Shown here piece after piece: positions 5,686-40,260 of a stretch of DNA of 64,000 bases (within the stretch, counting starts at the first letter, position 1; each line of letters opens with the position of its first letter). The stretch is taken from positions 80,889,980 through 80,953,979 of the forward strand of contig CP136063.1 of the NCBI GenBank assembly GCA_032622095.1. The letters are read 5' to 3'. The notes below the pieces were generated by a model that was not told where the DNA came from, did no database searches, and worked only from the letters and a program-made list of their open reading frames with translations. The translations under genes and the position numbers were made by a program. This stretch comes from Siphonodentalium dalli (Eukaryota; Mollusca; Scaphopoda; Gadilida; Siphonodentaliidae).

Positions 5686-6199
5686 TCTCATATATATTTT
5701 GAAGACCTATGTTTGTCTGTCTGTATGTTTGTTTGTCTGTATGTATGTCATTAATACAAATCTACGATTCTCGACCGATCGGGACGAAACTTGGTACGTG
5801 TGTGTAGTTTGACCAGGCGGTCGTCGTCGTCGTATTGGCGAGCCCGTGCGGCGCCCGTGCAGCGCACGCGCAGACGAGATCTCGGAAACGGGTGGAGCTA
5901 TCGACTTGAAATTTGCTATGTGAATGTATCTTGCCCCGGATACGAATTTTATCTGGTCGCCGAGCCCGTGCGACGCCAGCTTCGCGCATGCGCAGACGCG
6001 ATCTCGGAAACGGGTGGAGCTATCGACTTGAAATTTGGTATGTGAATGTATCTTGCCCCGGATACGAATTTTATCGGGTCGCCGAGCACGTGCGACGCCA
6101 GTTTCGCGCATGAGCAGACCAGATCTCGGAAACGGGTAGAGCTATCGACTTGAAATTTGGTTTTTGAATAGCCTGGACAACGTCGGGCTCATCGGCTAG
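5686..6199 (+). mobile_element. non-autonomous Helitron, copy 1
   Basis: The 5' end is TCTCATATATATTTTGAAG, preceded by A. The 3' end is CTAG followed by T, with a GC-rich near-palindrome (around acaacgtcggg) about ten bases upstream. These are the canonical Helitron features: TC start, CTRR end, 3' hairpin, A^T target and no target duplication. Internally it has about 127-bp direct repeats around 'gatctcggaaacgggt' and a gtctgt microsatellite near the 5' end. A diverged copy in the other orientation lies at 24704-25209. No Rep/helicase is encoded. Confidence 0.7.
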
Positions 6200-14681: not shown

Positions 14682-17270
14682 AGTGAACGTTCAGACGACC
14701 ACGATTCAGTCATAAGTGGAGAAATCGGGCCCGACAAAAACGTGAATAGTCTATATATTAACATGGGAAATCGTGGGTTGTTTATATATAAAGCCATGTG
14801 ATTCACTACCCAACGATCTTTGCATTCATGATATTTTATGTACAGATGACTGCGATTCGGTCGCAAGTGCATGGGATGGTAACCAAGGATACGCCACGAT
14901 TTTCGCATCTGACTTATGATCGAATCGTGGTTGTTTGGTCGTTCATGTAATCCCCATATATTCCAGATGTGTCACTTGACACTTGTCGCATTGCAAAAAC
15001 TATATTATATAGTCGAATGAAACCACCGGAGTACCATACAGTATATGAGACTCCCCCCTAAACTGGCGAATTTCCACATATAGTGTGATCAAAATAACAT
15101 ATAAGCAATATATAACGTTATTAACGCCTTATTCCTGATAAATTCCCTTTAGTTTGACATATATACAGCGAAAGAAGACTATATATATAGCGACAAATAA
15201 TTGGTAGAATAAGACTGTCCGGTATTTACTTGGGTATACTTTTGGTGTCACAACTATTTTCTGGACAGCTCATGATGGCCTGATGCGCTTTACAACTTAC
15301 TACTGAGCCACCGGGAGCGGAAATCGTAGGTAACCTACTTACCACTGAGCCACCGGGAGCGGAAATCTCGGGTAACCTACTTACCACTGAGCCACCGGGA
15401 GCGGAAATCGTAGGTAACCTACTTACCACTGAGCCACCGGGAGCGGAAATCTCGGGTAACCTACTTACCACTGAGCCATTGGGAGCGGAAATCGTAGGTA
15501 ACCTACTTACCACTGAGCCACCGGGAGCGGAAATCGTAGGTAACCTACTTACCACTGAGCCACCGGGAGCGGAAATCGTAGGTAACCTACTTACCACTGA
15601 GCCACCGGGAGCGGAAATCTCGGGTAACCTACTTACCACTGAGCCACCGGGAGCGGAAATCGCAGGTAACCTACTTACCACTGAGCCACCGGGAGCGGAA
15701 ATCGTAGGTAACCTACTTACCACTGAGCCACCGGGAGCGGAAATCTCGGGTAACCTACTTACCACTGAGCCACCGGGAGCGGAAACCGTAGGTAACCTAC
15801 TTACCACTGAGCCACCGGGAGCGGAAATCTCGGGTAACCTACTTACCACTGAGCCACCGGGAGCGGAAATCGCAGGTAACCAAAACTTACCACTGAGCCA
15901 CCGGAAGCGGAAATCGTAGGTAACCTACGTACCACTGAGCCACCGGGAGCGGAAATCGTAGGTAACCTACTTACCACTGAGCCACCGGGAGCGGAAATCT
16001 CGGGTAACCTACTTACCACTGAGCCACCGGGAGCGGAAATCGTAGGTAACCTACTTACCACTGAGCCACCGGGAGCGGAAATCTCGGGTAACCTACTTAC
16101 CACTGAGCCATTGGGAGCGGAAATCGTAGGTAACCTACTTACCACTGAGCCACCGGGAGCGGAAATCGTAGGTAACCTACTTACCACTGAGCCACCGGGA
16201 GCGGAAATCTCGGGTAACCTACTTACCACTGAGCCACCGGGAGCGGAAATCGTAGGTAACCTACTTACCACTGAGCCACCGGGAGCGGAAATCTCTGGTA
16301 ACCTACTTACCACTGAGCCATTGGGAGCGGAAATCGTAGGTAACCTACTTACCACTGAGCCACCGGGAGCGGAAATCTCGGATAACCTACTTACCACTGA
16401 GCCATTGGGAGCGGAAATCGTAGGTAACCTACTTACCACTGAGCCACCGGGAGCGGAAATCGCAGGTAACCGACTTACCACTGAGCCACCGGGAGCGGAA
16501 ATCGCAGGTAACCGACTTACCACTGAGCCATCGGGAGCGGAAATCGCAGGTAACCTACTTACCACTGAGCCACAGGGAGCGGAAATCGCAGGTAACCTAA
16601 GTGAACGTTCAGACGGCTACGATTCAATCGTAAGTGGAAAGATTTCCGTCGTAAGTATTCATCGGTAGTTGGGCTGGGCATAACCACGACAAGATCCCGA
16701 CTAAAGTAACAAGAAAACCAATGTCAGAAATGGTAACGCGCTCAAGATCATATATTATATACCCATGATTGTAATTATATAATATAATATATATTGGTTT
16801 CACGAATGACCAACTCATAATTCCGTTAAAACAACTAATCCTTCAAATTATTATGGCTTATCACTGAAGGTATCTCATGGATCTCACAAGAATTCCCAAC
16901 AACACCTTTTACCAGACTCGGCCTCCGGGTCGCAGTTCGACTTTTAATCCGTCCCAACAATTCCCATTTCTCTAAATAAAACGCCCATGCATGGCCCATG
17001 TATACCAAGAATCAGCGAAACATTATACACGCGGAGCTTGATTTTAGATGCGAAATTGCGGCGTATCCTCCACTTGCGATGGAATCGCAATCGTGTGTAT
17101 GTAAAAATCGTAGATGGAAAGATCAATCACGTGGTTAATCATGAATTACGAACAATCCACGATATATCCTCCTCTGCGACGATATCGCAATCGTGTGAGC
17201 AAACTATCCACGATTTTGTCGGGCCCGATTCCTCCACTTACGATTGAATCGTGATCGTCTGAACGTTACT
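14682..17270. mobile_element. inverted-terminal-motif element enclosing a minisatellite
   Basis: The left end, from AGTGAACGTTCAGACG, and the right end, on the other strand from AGTAACGTTCAGACG, match over about 60 bp, including acgattcaNtc and atcgggcccgacaaaa. The same terminal motif also occurs internally, directly after the minisatellite at 16600, and in inverted form near 14890-14935. The region may therefore be two short MITEs of one family (14682-~14940 and 16600-17270) around the array, or one composite element. No target duplication is clear. Confidence 0.55.
15306..16599. repeat. 42-bp minisatellite, about 31 units
   Basis: The unit reads gccaccgggagcggaaatcg, then taggtaacctacttaccact, then ga. 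Three main variants differ at one position: cgtagg, ctcggg or cgcagg. A fourth has attggg in place of accggg. Because 42 is a multiple of three, both strands are open throughout, giving 14-residue periodic frames (VSRLPTISAPGGSV on minus, GAEIVGNLLTTEPP on plus). Each unit contains ggtaacc, within a GTAGGT-A-ACCTAC near-palindrome in the commonest variant. No start context, splice site or family supports translation. Confidence 0.9.
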
Positions 17271-17618: not shown

Positions 17619-17784
17619 CGTTAATAGTCCAGTCGATCTATGGTTGAACCCCTAACTAATTGCAATAGAAGCTTTTTTGGTGTCAATCGTTCCAGCATAG
17701 CTTCCACAACAACATACTAAAACCCCCATGCACCCCCAATGTAGAAAGTCTCCATTGGGGGGGGGGGGGGAATAAATAACGGAA

Positions 17785-18336
17785 AATCGGAGAAATGTGG
17801 AATATCTACTTTATGTGGCGCCTGTTGTAGACTGAAGCTATATTTTCCACAACATTGTCAAATCCTACTACATCAAATGCATGCTACAATATATGTGAGG
17901 ATATCATCTGATAAAGGTTGCATTTTGGGGTAAAATATGCGAAAAATATTTGTTTAATCGGAGAAATGTGGAATATCGACTTTCTGTGGCGCTTGTTGTA
18001 GTTTGAAGCTATATTTTTCGTCACATTGTCAAATCATGCTACACCAATTGCATATTACAATAAAAGTGAGGATATCATCTGATAAAGTTTACATTTTTGG
18101 GGCAAAATATGCAAAGAAATATTTTTTAAATCGGAGAAATGTGGAATATCGAATTTCTGTGGCGCCTGTTGTAGACTGAAGCTATATTTTTCATCACATT
18201 GTCAAACCATACAACATCAATTGCATGTAACAATAACAGTGATGATATCATCTGATAAAGGTTGCATTTTAGGGTAAAATATGCAAAAATATTTAAAAAA
18301 TCGGTGAAATATGGAATCTCTCATTTCTGGTGCACA
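17785..18336 (+). repeat. subterminal 172-bp repeats, left arm
   Basis: Units start at about 17785, 17957 and 18130, with a partial unit at 18299. Each runs from atcggagaaatgtggaatat through caacattgtcaaa and gaggatatcatctgataaag to gcaaaatat. They mirror those of the right arm one for one. Confidence 0.85.
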
Positions 18337-18388
18337 TGCTGCAAACATAAGTTATATTTTGAGTCATACATTTTTCATATTCAATATA

Positions 18389-18586
18389 TTATGCTGCTGT
18401 ATCGTCACTTTCTATGTTTGAATTCGAACAACCCATATCCTGGCACTTTCCACACACTGTCGAACAACTCAGCCCTTGACGCTTGCACCCACACTTCATG
18501 TTGTTACAGCCAGAAGAACAATTGCATCTTATCATTTTGAGGAGTGATTCCGGGGCTGGTGGTAAGTCTGTCATCATCGGGTGCAT
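18389..18586 (-). pseudogene. tesmin/TSO1-like CXC zinc-binding tail
   Basis: The C-terminal block has nine regularly spaced cysteines within about 35 residues (CNCSSGC, CGCKRQGLSCSTVC, CGKC, GC). CXC modules of this type bind zinc and usually DNA. It is separated from the nuclease block by a stop/frameshift at about 18590 and stops 50 bp from the inner edge of the left inverted repeat. Confidence 0.7.
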
Positions 18587-21186
18587 TACATCCCCATCTA
18601 ATGTCCACCCCAGTCAGTGGGTTCGGCCGTGTTTCCGGCCCATAGTTGTGTTTGAACATATACCCTTCGGCTGTGACATTTAGCTGCTGCAGAAGATGGT
18701 GGTAAGTTATCTGGCTTTACAAAATGTCTTGCATACGACACCTTTTCCACTAAATACTTTCGACGGCACATTACCAAAGTGTCCCCATTCTTGCCACCGT
18801 ATAATGATATCATTGCCTGTGTACCAAGGTTATCAACTTCTTCAACAGAGAGATCTTTGACCAAGAACTTGTGTCCGATTGCTTGAAGGTAAGTATCACG
18901 ACATAGTTTATCAAAGCACTTCTGTTTCCCAATTCCAAACATTCTGGATGTTGTATCACATCGAGTTATAGAATGAAAAAATAGAAGGCTCCGACACAAG
19001 TCTTCTCCCAAAGCCTGTCGAATTTGTCGAATCTCATATACTTGTTTATTCTGCATCTTATCGCTCCGGAAAGTAATTTCGAAGGTGATATCGTTTGCCC
19101 AATACAAAAGTAGAACAAGCAGAACCGTATCTTCACCGCTCATTATTGTAGATCCCAATTTTGCCCGTTCGACGGCAGTTCGTACTATATCAGTATCTGC
19201 ATCCCCGTCTGAGTGGACCACCATACATCCACATTTCACCCATTTATTTGCAATTAAGTAGATGACGGATTGTTTGTTTTTAGCGTTACGGAGGAAGTTC
19301 TCCTTCTGTCCAACAATCGCCATATCCTCAACAAAATGGACATCGGGGCTACATTTTACTGATTTGGCACGTCGTTCATGGGTCGCATCTTTATTGGTAG
19401 GGCCGTTGTAACCGTCGAACACAACAGTAACGGTCGCTGCATATACCTGGGCAATGTCTTTGTATGTAACGCAGTTTTTCCAAGGCAATCTAATTAGAAG
19501 TGATCCACCATCCAAGACATAATGGCAATCTGACATAACTGAACGTGTCTCTGGATCTGTTGGTGTGGCCTCATTTGAACGACGGATTATAGCTTTGGCG
19601 AGAGGTGGTTTTTCAGCTTTCCACATGACCCCATTCGACTCAAAGAGTGACGGTGTGTATGCACACAGTTCATACTGGAGAGCATCATCAAGGTTGATGT
19701 CGGTGTTTGATGCAAGAACAAACATTCGTTGGAACAGCAACGCCGGGTCTATCCTTGCACCGTATTTTGTTTTAACCGCCATAACACTAGCCATTGTCTG
19801 AATCCTTCCGACTCCGCTTAATTGAATAGTCAAACACACTTTTATTCTCCATGTTGCGAATAACACTTTCACCGAAACAAAAGAAATCACAAACATTAGT
19901 GCCGACAGGAGCAGTAACTCCAGTCGCAATGTTTCTCAGATCAGGGTCGCCGGTGAACGGGGAATGTTCCTTCAAAAAGTCTATCACTATTTTAGTATCA
20001 TCAATGTCTCGTGTCATTCGAGTCGTCGAAATATCTTTATGTTGTTCACTAGTTTCTGTGACTGTACCAGTGAATGTTTGCATAGACATGTTAAATTCAG
20101 CTGATGCTGGTACGGAAGAGAGCCATGTGGCTCGCTGAGCGTGGCTCACGCCACTACCTCGTGTCAATCCATCAACGGATTTTATGGAACGCATGAGTAC
20201 TTGTTTAATGACTAAATCGGGGCCAGACCACTCCATATTCGCGCAGACCTTTTAATGGAATTTCCTTTTCCCATGAATTGCACGTGAACAGATTCATTCG
20301 CATTTTCAAAGTTCTCCATATTTTGTAGGTAAAAATATGCTGACTTCAGGTAAGTGTGACGTCCCGCTGAAGCGAAAATGGATAAAGCTTCCCGTGTAGC
20401 ATCCTTATGCAGCCCAAAGTCATTTAGTCTGTCTGCCATGATCAGTTTTCTGATTACAGAGAACATTTAGTGTAAACAATATTTTATTCTCAAGAATAGC
20501 ACATATAATACATAATATAAGGACGATAACAATTTAACATTAGAGAAAAGGATTTGGCAGTAAGCCAAAGGCTTATAGGTGGCCATTTCCTTAGTATATA
20601 TATTGCATCATGGTTTGATTGGGTCTCAATGATGAATTGCCTGTTCCACAAGCACCCGCAACATTTGCTGATATTGCAACCAGTATTTACTGGTGGCTGA
20701 TAGGCTGCACAGCACTTCCATTTCTGCCTCCAGAAGAACTGCCACGCCTGGTAAAATGTTGTCGCGGGATACGTCATCAACAGTCAGATCGCCATTCAGA
20801 ATATTATCATAAAGGAGACCAGCATGCGAGAGACATCACTAACCGGAAGAGTGACATCGGTTCCGCACCCAAGAACTTCGGAAGACACCAACGCACCAAG
20901 CGCTGTGTCCACTAAGGAATGGGATCGCATTGCCCTGGAATACGCCTTTCCTGAGAAGATATGATTCACTGCATTTTCGGCGTTCACTCTCTCCATTATC
21001 TCGCATAACCCAGATCCTTCCATCAATGTTCCTATGGCTCCCAGAATGTTCATCACTGTGTGAAAGCCGCCTAATAATAAACACACATCTTAGTTCTGGA
21101 TAATTGTTTATCACAACATATGCTTTCCAGAAAAGTGGCTGGTCGAATGTTATTACTAATCCAGAAGAGCTCGAGAATGCTAGCAT
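18389..21186 (-). pseudogene. PIN/FEN-like nuclease with CXC domain, frameshifted
   Basis: Read right to left, consecutive open blocks cover one long protein. These are ITFDQPLFWKAYVVINNYPE (about 21150-21090), LGGFHTVMNILGAIGTLMEG (21086-20796), a shifted block to about 20620, then 20466-20212, 20236-19787, 19929-18598 and 18586-18389. The fourth to sixth blocks carry TSEQHKD, a PIN/FEN-like acidic set (VVFDGY, SDGDADTDIV, GEDTVLLVLL), FFHSITRCDTTSRMFG and PTDW. The last block is a tesmin/TSO1-like CXC motif (CNCSSGCNNMKCGCK ... CGKCQDMGC). This domain set recurs in unnamed invertebrate proteins. At least three frameshifts indicate decay. The 18598-19929 frame begins with a hydrophobic stretch that is out of frame with the gene and is not a signal peptide. 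As the only gene between the arms it is the candidate mobility or cargo function; the nuclease role is inferred from motifs. Confidence 0.7.
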
Positions 21187-21204
21187 ATGCACTAGAAGTG
21201 AGAG

Positions 21205-21463
21205 ATTCCATATTTCACCGATTTTTTGCATATTTTTTGCATATTTTACCCCAAAATGCAACCTTTATCAGATGATATCCTCACTGTTATTGTTACATGC
21301 AATTGATGTTGTATGGTTTGACAATGTGATGAAAAATATAGCTTCAGTCTACAACAGGCGCCACAGAAATTCGATATTCCACATTTCTCCGATTAAAATT
21401 TTTGTGTGTGCATATTTTGTCCCAAATATGTAACCTTTATCAGATGATATCCTCACTTTTATT
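21205..21463 (-). repeat. subterminal repeats, right arm inner part
   Basis: This is the inverted copy of the inner left-arm units: agagattccatatttcaccg matches 18299-18320, followed by one complete unit and the start of the next. The unit breaks off at cacttttatt where the nested element begins. Confidence 0.85.
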
Positions 21464-22758
21464 ACTTGCGCCAGTCCATGCTGGACGCAAGTAATGTTTT
21501 CGGCTCGGATGTCTGTTTATTTTTCTGTTTATCCTTCCTTCCGTGAATATGTTACGTCATACCGGAAGTACATACTGTCAAAAATGAACACGCGCTAATA
21601 TGAAATGGTTGCATCAATTGTAATTTAAATCCACATATATACTTAATTTGCATTGTTATCTGGTTTTATTTTGGTAATAAATCGTTCAAAAATGAACAAT
21701 ATTGAATTATTTCTTTCTGGAAACCGATCATGACGTCCCGACGCACATCAGGACGTCACAAGCTACATGGGCGCGCAAAACACCATACATGATTGCGTCG
21801 ATGTCCAGACAGCTGAGACTCGTATTACACGGACAGGCTAAACCATTCCATCTGCCAACAACTTCGTGTTTTATTATTATAAATATATATACTGCATGTA
21901 AAACAAACGTGGGCAACAGTACATGCCCATTAGAAGCCTATTTTATGTAACTTGAAACTCGAGGAAATGAGTTGAGATCAAATCTAAAAGATGCGTGCGG
22001 AATCGTTTTTTTCGCAGTGACTGTGAGGTGCGAACATATTTCTGGAAAGTTCAAAACATTTTCGAAAGATCCTGGTGCATATAAATCATGTCCGGCCAAA
22101 CAGTCGAGCGCGTGGTTCAATTGAAAAACAATTGCACTGAAAATGTGAATGTGGAAACATGGATTATTAAAATGCCTTATTAATTAACTGGGAAAACAAG
22201 CTTTCTCATTCTCAACGCAATATACATGTTGATATGTTCCCGAAGTCTGTAGATCAGTCGCTAAGGGCATGTTCACATTGACACATTGTTAATCAAAGAC
22301 TAACCAATGATCGCGTTTCTTTTATTTAATTGTGTCGGTATTTTGTAATTTACTTTGATGGTTTTTGCCACTGGCATACACACTTGATATCATTCTAGCC
22401 AAACTAGTAAGTTAACCCAATTGGTATATAATATAGCATCATCGGCAACCAATCGTCTTCACACCCTTCATATGAACGATGTCTATATTGTTATATTAAT
22501 ATGTCAAACAACTCGTACGTATTACTAAGACTATACCATTAGTGTAATAGATCAACTTGAGATAACAGATATTCTGTCCGTACACACACCTATTTCAGCG
22601 ATGGATGAACAGAGCTTTGATATCTAGATTTTTGTTATCGATCTCTCAAACGAGGGGGCAGCACCCGTGGTTCAAACTGTTGTTGGCAAGACACCACACA
22701 ACATGCCAAATGTGTGATGGGCGCAAGTATAGGCAGCTCCAGTGAGTGCATTCTAGTT
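21464..22758. mobile_element. Helentron-like non-autonomous element (HINE) 1
   Basis: It splits a 172-bp repeat unit: ...cacttttatt stops at 21463 and gtaacatgcaattg resumes at 22759. The neighbouring unit reads uninterrupted (gttattgtaacatg), so the exact empty site is known. The 5' end is ACTTGCGCC. A perfect inverted copy, GGCGCAAGT, lies not at the 3' end but about 29 bp inside it (22721-22729), followed by a short imperfect hairpin (gcagctccagtgagtgc). Asymmetric inverted repeats plus a 3' hairpin, a TT target and no target duplication are Helentron/Helitron2 features. The first 30 bases also fold back on themselves. No open frame of note. Confidence 0.75.
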
Positions 22759-23213
22759 GTAACATGCAATTGATGTAGAATGATTTGACAATGTGACGAA
22801 AAATATAGCTTCAAACTACAACAGGCGCCACAGAAAGTCGATATTCCACATTTCTCCGATTAAAAAAATATTTTTCGCATATTTTACCCAAAAATGCAAC
22901 CTTTATCAGATGATATCCTCACTGTTATTGTAGCATGCATTTGATGTAGTATGATTTGACAATGTTGTGGAAAATATAGCTTCAGTCTACAACAGGCGCC
23001 ACGTAAAGTAGATATTCCACATTTCTCAGATTTTTCGTTATTTTTTCACTTTTCCCCCCAAAATGGAGACTTTCTACATTGGGGATGCATGGGGGGTTTT
23101 AGTATGTTGTTGTGGAAGCTATGCTGGAACGATTGACACCAAAAAAGCTTCTATTGCAATTAGTTAGGGGTTAGGGGTATTTTTAATCTAGATCCATGCA
23201 CTGGACTATAACG
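22759..23213 (-). repeat. right arm, outer part of the composite inverted repeat
   Basis: It continues the interrupted unit, adds one more full 172-bp unit to about 23035, then the unique outer arm (gagactttctacattgggg, ttagtatgttgttgtgg, gctggaacgattgacacc) that mirrors 17640-17760. Confidence 0.85.
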
Positions 23214-24604: not shown

Positions 24605-25437
24605 TAGATAGTTTATGACATAAAACGTCCACACAAGACTGATGTCAAAATAACAAATATATATATAACAATGTCAACAATGATTCAACATAATATATAT
24701 ATACTAGCCGATGAGCCCGACGTTGCCCGGGCTATTCAAAAACCAAATTTCAAGTCGATAGCTCCACCCGTTTCCGAGATCTGGTCTGCGCATGCGCGAA
24801 GCTGGCGTCGCACGGGCTCGGCGACCCGATAAAATTCGTATCCGGGGCAAGATACATTCACATACCAAATTTCAAGTCGATAGCTCCACCCGTTTCCGAG
24901 ATTTCGTCTGCGCATGCGCGAAGCTTGCGTCGCACGGGCTCGGCGACCCGATAAAATTCGTATTCGGGGCAAGATACATTCACATAGCAAATTTCAAGTC
25001 GATAGCTCCACCCGTTTCCGAGATCTCGTCTGCGCATGCCCGAAGCGGGCGCCGCACGGGCTCGTCAATACGACAACGTCCACCGCCTGGTCAAACTACA
25101 CACACGTACCAAGTTTCGTCCCGATCGGTCGAGAATCGTAGATTTGTATTAATGACATACAGACAGACAGACAGACAGACATACAGAGGTCTTCAAAATA
25201 TATATGAGACTATAGTAACTATTTCATTATTATATCAGACTCAGTAGAATTTGACCTTTCTTTGAAAAATGTCCGGACCATTGTTGCAGATTATGTTGCA
25301 TGTATGAGGATCGTTGTTTTGCATTATGTATTGGAATTTTTGGCCATCATTCAATCCAATAAATGTATCACTCGTCATCCCTATCTCAGAAAAGAAGTGT
25401 TCACGCATCTTATCATATGTTTTGCAGCGGTGCACGA
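24605..25437 (-). mobile_element. LINE 3' end, copy 2, interrupted by a Helitron
   Basis: The 3' UTR part (24605-24703) and coding end (25210-25437) match the LINE tail at 9895-10200 almost base for base: acataaaacgtccac, acaatgtcaacaatgattca, gaatttgacctt and aaaaatgtccggacca. The coding piece keeps TYDKMREHFFSEIGMTSD. The Helitron at 24704-25209 separates the two parts. The copy is 5'-truncated near 25437, inside the Cys/His region. Confidence 0.8.
24704..25209 (-). mobile_element. non-autonomous Helitron, copy 2
   Basis: Same family as 5686-6199. On the minus strand it starts TCTCATATATATTTTGAAG and ends CTAG followed by T, with the hairpin around ccgggcaacgtcggg. It retains the repeated gatctcggaaacgggtgg segments. 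It sits inside a LINE 3' UTR; the uninterrupted LINE copy at 9970-9990 shows the empty site with no duplicated target bases. The base before TC is G here, not the usual A. Confidence 0.8.
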
Positions 25438-37969: not shown

Positions 37970-40260
37970 GTTGGATCGAAGTTCGAAGTTCGAAATTCGG
38001 TGGAGATTCGCGTGAAGTTGGATCGAAGTTCGAAGTTCGAAATTCGGTGGAGATTCGACCCCCACTTTTTTTTGCATCAAGTGCGTTGTTGTGTTCCAAT
38101 TCGTGCTCCCCTGCTCGAATTTTGGGTCAAAAGTGATTTTTTTCACTTTTTCTGAGATACTGCTGGACTTAGAAAATTTAGGCACGGCGCTGGACTTAGA
38201 AAATTTCGCCTTCAATATTAAGGTGCCGAGGGGAAGTGGCACTGTTTATGGCTGGATCGGACTGAAACTTGGCAGTTTTGATACTTTCCATCAGAGAATC
38301 TAGCAAGTTAACGCTCAGCTTCGAGAAATTACTCGATCTATAGGTTTGAATTTCAATCTGAGCGTTCGAAATTCGGTGGATATTCGTTCGAAGTTCGAAA
38401 TTCAGATTGAAATTCAACCCCCACTTTTTTTTGCCCCAACTTCGTTGTTGTGGTCCAATTCGTGCTCCCCTGTTCGAAATTTTGGTCAAAAGTTATTTTT
38501 TTCACTTTTTCTGAGATACTGTTAAACTTAGAAAATTTAGGCACGGCGCTGGACTTAGAAAATTTCGCCTTCAATATTAAGGTGCCGAGGGGAAGTGGCA
38601 CTGTTTATGGCTGGATCGGACTGAAACTTGGCAGTTTTGATACTTTCCATCAGAGAATCTAGCAAGTTAACGCTCAGCTTCGAGAAATTACTCGATCTAT
38701 AGGTTTGAATTTCAATCTGAGCGTTCGAAATTCGGTGGATATTCGTTCGAAGTTCGAAATTCAGATTGAAATTCAACCCCCACTTTTTTTTGCCCCAACT
38801 TCGTTGTTGTGGTCCAATTCGTGCTCCCCTGTTCGAAATTTTGGTCAAAAGTTATTTTTTTCACTTTTTCTGAGATACTGTTAAACTTAGAAAATTTAGG
38901 CACGGCGCTGGACTTAGAAAATTTCGCCTTCAATATTAAGGTGCCGAAGGGAAGTGGCATTGTTTATGGCTGGATTGAGATGAAATTTGGTATGTTTGAT
39001 ACTTTCCATAAGAGAATCAAGCAAACTAACGCTCAGCTTCGAGAAATTACTCGATCTATAGGTTTGAATTTCAATCTGAATTTCAATCTGGGCGAATTTC
39101 GATCTGGATTGAAGTTCGAAATTCAGATTGAAATTCGACTCCCACTTTTGTTTGCCTCAAATGCATTGTTGTGTTCCAATTCGTGCTCCCCTGCTCGAAT
39201 TTTGGGTCAAAAGTTATTTTTTTCACTTTTTCTGAGATACTGCTGGACTTGGAAAATTTAGCCACGGCGCTGGACTTAGAAAATTTAGCCTTCAATATCA
39301 AGGTGCCGAAGGGAAGTGGCATTGTTTATGGCTGGATTGAGCTGAAATTTGGTATGTTTGATACTTTCCATAAGAGAATCAAGCAAACTAACGCTCAGCT
39401 TCGAGAAATTACTCGATCTATAGGTTTGAATTTCAATCTGAATTTCAATCTGGGCGAATTTCGATCTGGATTGAAGTTCGAAATTCAGATTGAAATTCGA
39501 CCACCACTTTTGTTTGCCTCAAATGCATTGTTGTGTTCCAATTCGTGCTCCCCTGCTCGAATTTTGGGTCAAAAGTGATTTTTTTCACTTTTTCTGAGAT
39601 ATTGCTGGACTTATAAAATTTAGGCACGGCGCTGGACTTAGAAAATTTCGCCTTCAATATTAAGGTGCCGAAGGGAAGTGGCATTGTTTATGGCTGGATT
39701 GAGCTGAAATTTGGTATGTTTGATACTTTCCATAAGAGAATCAAGCAAACTAACGCTCAGCTTCGAGAAATTACTCGATCTATAGGTTTGAATTTCAATC
39801 TGAGCGTTCGAAATTCGGTGGAGATTCAGAGGAGATTCGTTCGAAGTTCGAAATTCAGATTGAAATTCTACCCCCACTTTTTTTTGTCTCAAACATTTCG
39901 CCTTCAATATTATGATAGGGGTGGTGTCGGAGGGAAGTGGCACTGTTTATGGTTCGATCGAGCTGAAACTTGGCATTTTTGATACTTTCCGGTAGAGAAT
40001 CCAGCAAACTAACGCTCAGCTTCGAGAAATCACTCGATTTATAGGTTTGAATTTCAATCTGAGCGTTCGAACCTATTCGTTCGAAGTTCGAAATTCGGTG
40101 GAGATTCAACCCCTAATTTTTGTTTTGCCTCAAGTTCATTGTTGTGTTCCAATTCGTGCTCCCCTGTTCGAATTTTGGGTCAAATTTTTTTTTTTTTTCA
40201 CTTTTTATGAGATACTGCTGGACTTTTGCCACGGCGCTGGACTTGTGACTTGATTTGTGA
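37970..40260 (+). repeat. satellite of about 360 bp, roughly six units
   Basis: The landmark ttccaattcgtgctcccctg recurs near 38095, 38453, 38812, 39175, 39537 and 40148. Units 2 and 3 are nearly identical over 359 bp, while outer units are diverged or rearranged (a shorter insert near 39900). Each unit ends in clusters of short inverted motifs around gttcgaaattcgg. Open frames on both strands are periodic by-products of a near-3n unit length. Confidence 0.85.

Follow-up and report, generated by a model that had tools for sequence, protein, structure and literature searches.

The window examined here, 64,000 nucleotides from the scaphopod Siphonodentalium dalli (assembly GCA_032622095.1, contig CP136063.1, positions 80,889,980 to 80,953,979 of the forward strand), contains between positions 17625 and 23208 a decayed transposon in which two long inverted arms enclose the remains of one gene. 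The original prediction, made from the letters alone, had located the element at 17619..23213, which is 5-6 bp too wide; the trinucleotide TAA stands directly outside both exact ends (17622..17624 and 23209..23211). The left arm (17625..18340, plus strand) lies on the 3' side of the gene and starts with the terminus TAGTCCAGTCGATCTATGG, followed by a 172-173-bp subrepeat that recurs ~3 times (3.1 copies by our count, against the 3.3 copies of a 172-bp unit first proposed for each arm). The right arm, on the minus strand, is present where predicted but is not a single block: an inner 282 bp (21182-21463) abuts the truncated gene at the junction 21181/21182, and an outer 452 bp (22757-23208), on the 5' side of the gene, ends in ...ACTGGACTA, the two being separated by a 1293-bp insertion. 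Two collinear inverted matches relate the arms, 17647-18060 with 23172-22757 (94.5% identity) and 18059-18340 with 21463-21182 (93.6%). With the 1293-bp stretch excluded, the arms measure 716 (left) and 734 (right, 452 + 282) bases and are near-identical except for roughly the outer 60 bases. When the element was shuffled (n = 20), the best inverted match reached at most 41 bits; the left arm matches copies elsewhere in the genome at up to 1135 bits. On the outside, the copies terminate at TAGTACAGTCGATCTA or near variants, that of the window's subfamily being TAGTCCAG. Of the two end types, ATGGTTGAACCCC is found mainly on the 3' side of the gene and GATTAAAAAGACCCC mainly on its 5' side.

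A target duplication was sought by comparing flanks, as had been suggested, and is exact: the three bases outside both ends are identical in seven of the eight two-ended copies. These duplications are TAA in the window, TAT in L010 and L012, AGT in L013, ATC in L017, AAA in L019 and CAA in L024; the disagreeing case is L027/L028, with ends 12.3 kb apart. As a control, unrelated ends of the same eight elements were paired crosswise, with flanks transferred by hand, and agreed at three bases in 2 of 56 pairings. Since seven of eight pairs agree at three bases and none of the eight at four, the target duplication is 3 bp long and has no fixed sequence.

To place the element among its copies, we searched the 2.23-Gb genome (9 contigs; the window lies on contig C3) with the left arm. 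At least 43 matches were found; 40 of 56 arm-match candidates were scored, so that arm counts are lower bounds. We fetched 27 stretches around left-arm matches, and the gene and arm counts given here cover these arm-selected loci plus the window. The gene stands beside an arm in the window and in 17 of the 27 (L009, L012-L019, L022, L024, L026-L031), where it is 85-100% identical to that of the window, by aligned piece. In 16 of these 17 loci the gene's 3' end lies no more than ~26 bp from the inner end of the arm, the exception being L027, in which the 5' side is seen. L027 and L028 come from a single place and possibly belong to the same element. The gene is absent from nine loci (L011, L020, L021, L023, L025, L032-L035), and in L010 two arms 1.5 kb apart hold just the last 166 bp of it. 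Some loci are not independent of one another: L011, L025 and L035 have a common outer flank (99.6-100% identity over about 260 bp), as do L010 and L020 (91%), and each set represents one insertion in duplicated DNA. No flank is shared between any two gene-bearing loci among the 35 end flanks compared. Because arms and gene occur together and are bounded by exact 3-bp target duplications, they form one mobile unit, a transposon whose gene is its own; the original prediction had allowed for this or for a mobilisable cassette that carries the gene. No fetched locus encodes the entire family protein within a single frame. Behind the 5' arm of L024 and L019 lies part of the gene's 3' end in inverted orientation (~840 and ~140 bp, respectively), as if these arms had grown by inverted duplication.

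The window gene itself, expected to be a single gene between the arms, is present but broken and N-terminally truncated. Long relatives of its protein align on the minus strand from about 21207 to 18398, and the alignment of one of them, P0125, is broken into six pieces that lie in frames -2, -3, -2, -1, -2 and -1. Five long relatives begin to match at residues 558, 566, 584, 599 and 639, and their preceding residues (the first 557-638) have no match within the window. Reading from the 5' side, the gene begins with the motif TFDQPLFWKA (21097..21156, minus strand, frame -2), with nothing recognisable N-terminal to it beyond ~40 residues, and continues with the end of a candidate RNase-H-like domain (LGGFH...; 20886..21089, minus strand, frame -3) and a helical region (20221..20466, minus strand, frame -2; P0125 residues 786-867). 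A second helical region (19805..20275, minus strand, frame -1) carries Lys in place of the candidate catalytic Glu (DLVIKQVLMRS): at P0129 position 508, Glu is present in 97 of 98 relatives, and Lys recurs in L009. The FEN/XPG-like nuclease domain follows at 18607..19806 (minus strand, frame -2; P0121 residues 1009-1416). Its predicted motifs VVFDGY and GDAD, and the CDTTS-type motif, are real; in GEDTVLL, however, a metal-binding Asp has become Val (P0129 position 869, Asp in 102 of 104 relatives). The C-terminal CXC domain, also foreseen, is present at 18398..18610 (minus strand; P0125 residues 1410-1474, with the P0121 match extending to 18398), but in frame -1 and thus not in that of the nuclease. 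A Pfam scan of the two largest gene pieces in the window gave matches at chance level only. Judged from its frames and substitutions, the locus probably encodes no working enzyme.

The long relatives of this protein, from invertebrates and fish, have ~1,490 residues (many 1,440-1,560, a few up to 1,701). At the N-terminus they are predicted to have a region rich in Cys and His, then a probable RNase-H-like (DDE) core accompanied by an all-helical part, then a nuclease of FEN1/EXO1/XPG type and a C-terminal CXC domain with nine Cys. Comparison of predicted structures indicates that the nuclease part folds like EXO1, FEN1 and XPG, with seven metal-binding acids conserved, which supports the FEN-like reading of the motifs and would place the nuclease in the FEN1/XPG (Rad2) kind. 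This fold is evident in structure comparison only: identity to the FEN1/EXO1/XPG structures is 9-14% over the aligned part in most rows, and a sequence-profile search of PDB chains with the family alignment A1 returned no match at E 1 or better. The upstream domain (P0125 residues 440-880) is a candidate RNase-H-like DDE transposase core, considered probable, and a likelier transposase than the nuclease-plus-CXC combination. Foldseek and VIA searches with it found no clear or close PDB fold; the HzTransib transposase, at E 1.1 in a whole-protein structure search, was not counted. Two of six long relatives scanned against Pfam matched DUF6589 (PF20231), with E values of 3.5e-6 and 0.0058. Neither match reaches the curated cut-off; the better one, P0125 residues 629-925, scores 26.4 bits against a cut-off of 27. 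The other four had no DUF6589 match at E 0.01, and the six contained neither a named Pfam transposase domain nor, at E 0.01, a helicase. Patterns from alignment A1 matched 53 times in viral and 89 times in genome contigs, none confirmed as a family relative, and the 27-base arm pattern matched 0 times in viral contigs; a prokaryotic or viral origin was therefore set aside. A hagfish relative of the nuclease, P0032, bears an N-terminal OST-HTH/LOTUS match (E 1.8e-17), possibly a fusion or a gene-model artefact.

The truncation of the window gene is not private to this copy. The junction between arm and truncated gene at 21181/21182 is common to the window (contig C3), L009 (C9) and L022 (C6); L009 keeps just 12 bp of arm there, and L022 is without the outer part of that arm. 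Since the three share the junction and differ in their gene-3' outer flanks, the simplest reading is that the deletion arose once and that the deleted form then moved in trans. Two insertions have further altered the window copy. The unrelated 1293-bp stretch that splits the right arm (21464..22756) opens with a 29-bp near-palindrome, ACTTGCGCCAGTCCATGCTGGACGCAAGT, carries GGGCGCAAGT close to the opposite end and matches nothing in the 27 fetched loci; it is possibly a hairpin-ended element. A 191-bp insertion in the gene (20469..20659), flanked by the 7-bp duplication AAATGTT, is missing at the same site in L009, L014, L016, L017, L019 and L022. It may represent a separate small repeat family, as an 86%-alike copy lies at L016:2599-2794.

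Other repeats lie outside the element. A 42-bp tandem unit present in 31 copies (15295-16599) is open on both strands over long stretches, with open reading frames of 211-262 residues made of LTTEPPGAEI.GN or SAPGGSVVSRLP repeats. Seemingly the same 122-bp tandem unit occurs in opposite orientation at 5839-6169 and 24734-25064 (2.7 copies each), and a 362-bp unit is repeated 5.2 times at 38028-39893 with 93% matches.

We propose that an intact family protein would bind the subterminal repeats together with the TAGTACAG termini, and that its RNase-H-like domain would cut and join DNA with a 3-bp stagger, giving the 3-bp duplication. The FEN-type domain could trim or cut 5' flaps at the ends or in the repaired gap, and the CXC tail would bind DNA. 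The deleted subfamily that includes the window copy may have been mobilised in trans by such a protein.

Based on these observations, the element in the window appears to be a cut-and-paste DNA transposon, now dead and with part of its interior deleted, whose most likely affiliation within the Academ superfamily is with the AcademX lineage (probability about 0.7). The family was set beside Academ by published description, and its membership is stated at that strength. An XPG-type nuclease and a Cys8 finger are features of Academ proteins. The group goes back to Kapitonov and Jurka 2010 and Kojima 2020, the latter reportedly the defining paper for its lineages, and Yuan and Wessler 2011 reportedly surveyed catalytic domains. 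The AcademX lineage is described in PMC10045372 and PMC4455052, and the available excerpts of the former give 3-4-bp duplications for AcademX and 9-10-bp duplications for AcademH, a difference linked there to nuclease versus helicase. The original prediction had proposed a nuclease-plus-CXC transposase as a new class; because a nuclease and 3-4-bp duplications are already in print for AcademX, at least in those excerpts, a new class is unlikely, and the family most likely falls in an already named group. The distribution of hosts weighs against this assignment: in the excerpted part of a bivalve-centred survey (PMC10294476), Academ is almost confined to bivalves among the molluscs covered, whereas the present family occurs in invertebrates and fish, and for this reason we lowered our estimate from 0.78 to 0.72. 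Within the literature excerpts seen, we recognised no paper describing the protein family, or an Academ protein in detail, and the literature search yielded no paper containing both DUF6589 and "transpos".

The strongest competitor, which we consider unlikely yet worth keeping in view, is a distinct superfamily whose mobility would be due to the CXC domain acting with either the RNase-H-like domain or the FEN-type nuclease. An equally doubtful, more specific form of it posits a superfamily of its own across invertebrates and fish, with an RNase-H-like core and a FEN1-family flap nuclease in one polypeptide, where the nuclease would act in strand cleavage or in processing hairpins or flaps at excision and the 172-bp units would be binding arrays. 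Such a superfamily would fit the lack of a named Pfam transposase domain in the six long relatives (with weak DUF6589 matches in two), an upstream domain without a close PDB fold, a host range wider than that reported for Academ in the survey excerpt, and a comparison with Academ made by description. Against it, a nuclease with a 3-bp duplication combines traits already printed for AcademX in the excerpts available, and the Academ elements of a curated bivalve library (PMC10294476) have a mean length of 5,565 bp, which is of the order of the present element.

It is quite improbable, in our view, that the nuclease was acquired by a different known superfamily (EnSpm/CACTA of the CMC group, Kolobok, hAT or MuDR). 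CACTA elements also have 3-bp duplications and subterminal repeats. The Kolobok/hAT/MuDR/P/Dada group is characterised by a conserved C/DxxH motif between the second D and the E, and this stretch (candidate residues D230 and E508, as placed by us) offers a mixed picture that leans against such a relationship: [CD]xxH occurs somewhere within it in 43 of 77 relatives, but P0129 is without it, no C column reaches 70%, and no C or D column is conserved jointly with such an H. The 3-bp duplications vary in sequence, unlike the TTAA of Kolobok. Kolobok lineages did acquire various nucleases, and according to the partial text of PMC9587614, KolobokE, KolobokD and KolobokP pair a transposase with nucleases of lambda-exonuclease-like, DEDDh and His-Me finger folds. 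Least probable of all, and rejected on the near-fixed gene/arm junction, is that the gene is a passenger captured between arms that stem from a different transposon family: the nine loci with arms alone and the 1.5-kb L010 unit would suit it, but these resemble deletion derivatives, and the gene's 3' end and the arm are joined within ~26 bp in nearly every gene-bearing locus.

The assignment to a transposon has a practical consequence. A set of unnamed proteins of marine animals, annotated as "Tesmin/TSO1-like CXC domain" or "hypothetical", is now tied to an element whose ends and 3-bp duplication are defined, so that a transposon origin can be assumed for gene models of this sort. The family also provides a clear example of a transposon protein that bears a predicted FEN1-like nuclease, the role of which in transposition is open to test.

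Among known systems, the structure-specific FEN1, EXO1 and XPG (Rad2) nucleases differ from the family nuclease, which is part of a transposon polypeptide that ends in a CXC domain. DUF6589, matched weakly and under its curated cut-off, has no named function. The CMC group (EnSpm/CACTA, Mirage, Chapaev) is defined, in the source excerpts, by a C(2)C motif between the second D and the E, and the family is without it (CxxC in 1 of 77 relatives, with the same candidate residues). The Kolobok lineages, as far as the excerpts describe them, are likewise DNA transposons pairing a transposase with a nuclease; in the present family, by contrast, the nuclease is FEN-like and in one polypeptide, and the 3-bp duplications vary in sequence. 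Academ carries a RecQ helicase in the available part of PMC3627910, and AcademH, with its helicase and 9-10-bp duplications, differs from a family with a 3-bp duplication and no helicase match in the six long relatives. Long arms composed of 172-bp subrepeats characterise the present family. For non-autonomous elements, the Repbase rule is that the first 11 terminal bases resemble those of reference families; the termini here are TAGTACAGTCGATCTA. The closest likeness is to AcademX, for which the excerpts give a nuclease and 3-4-bp duplications, matching the element-encoded nuclease and 3-bp duplication found here.
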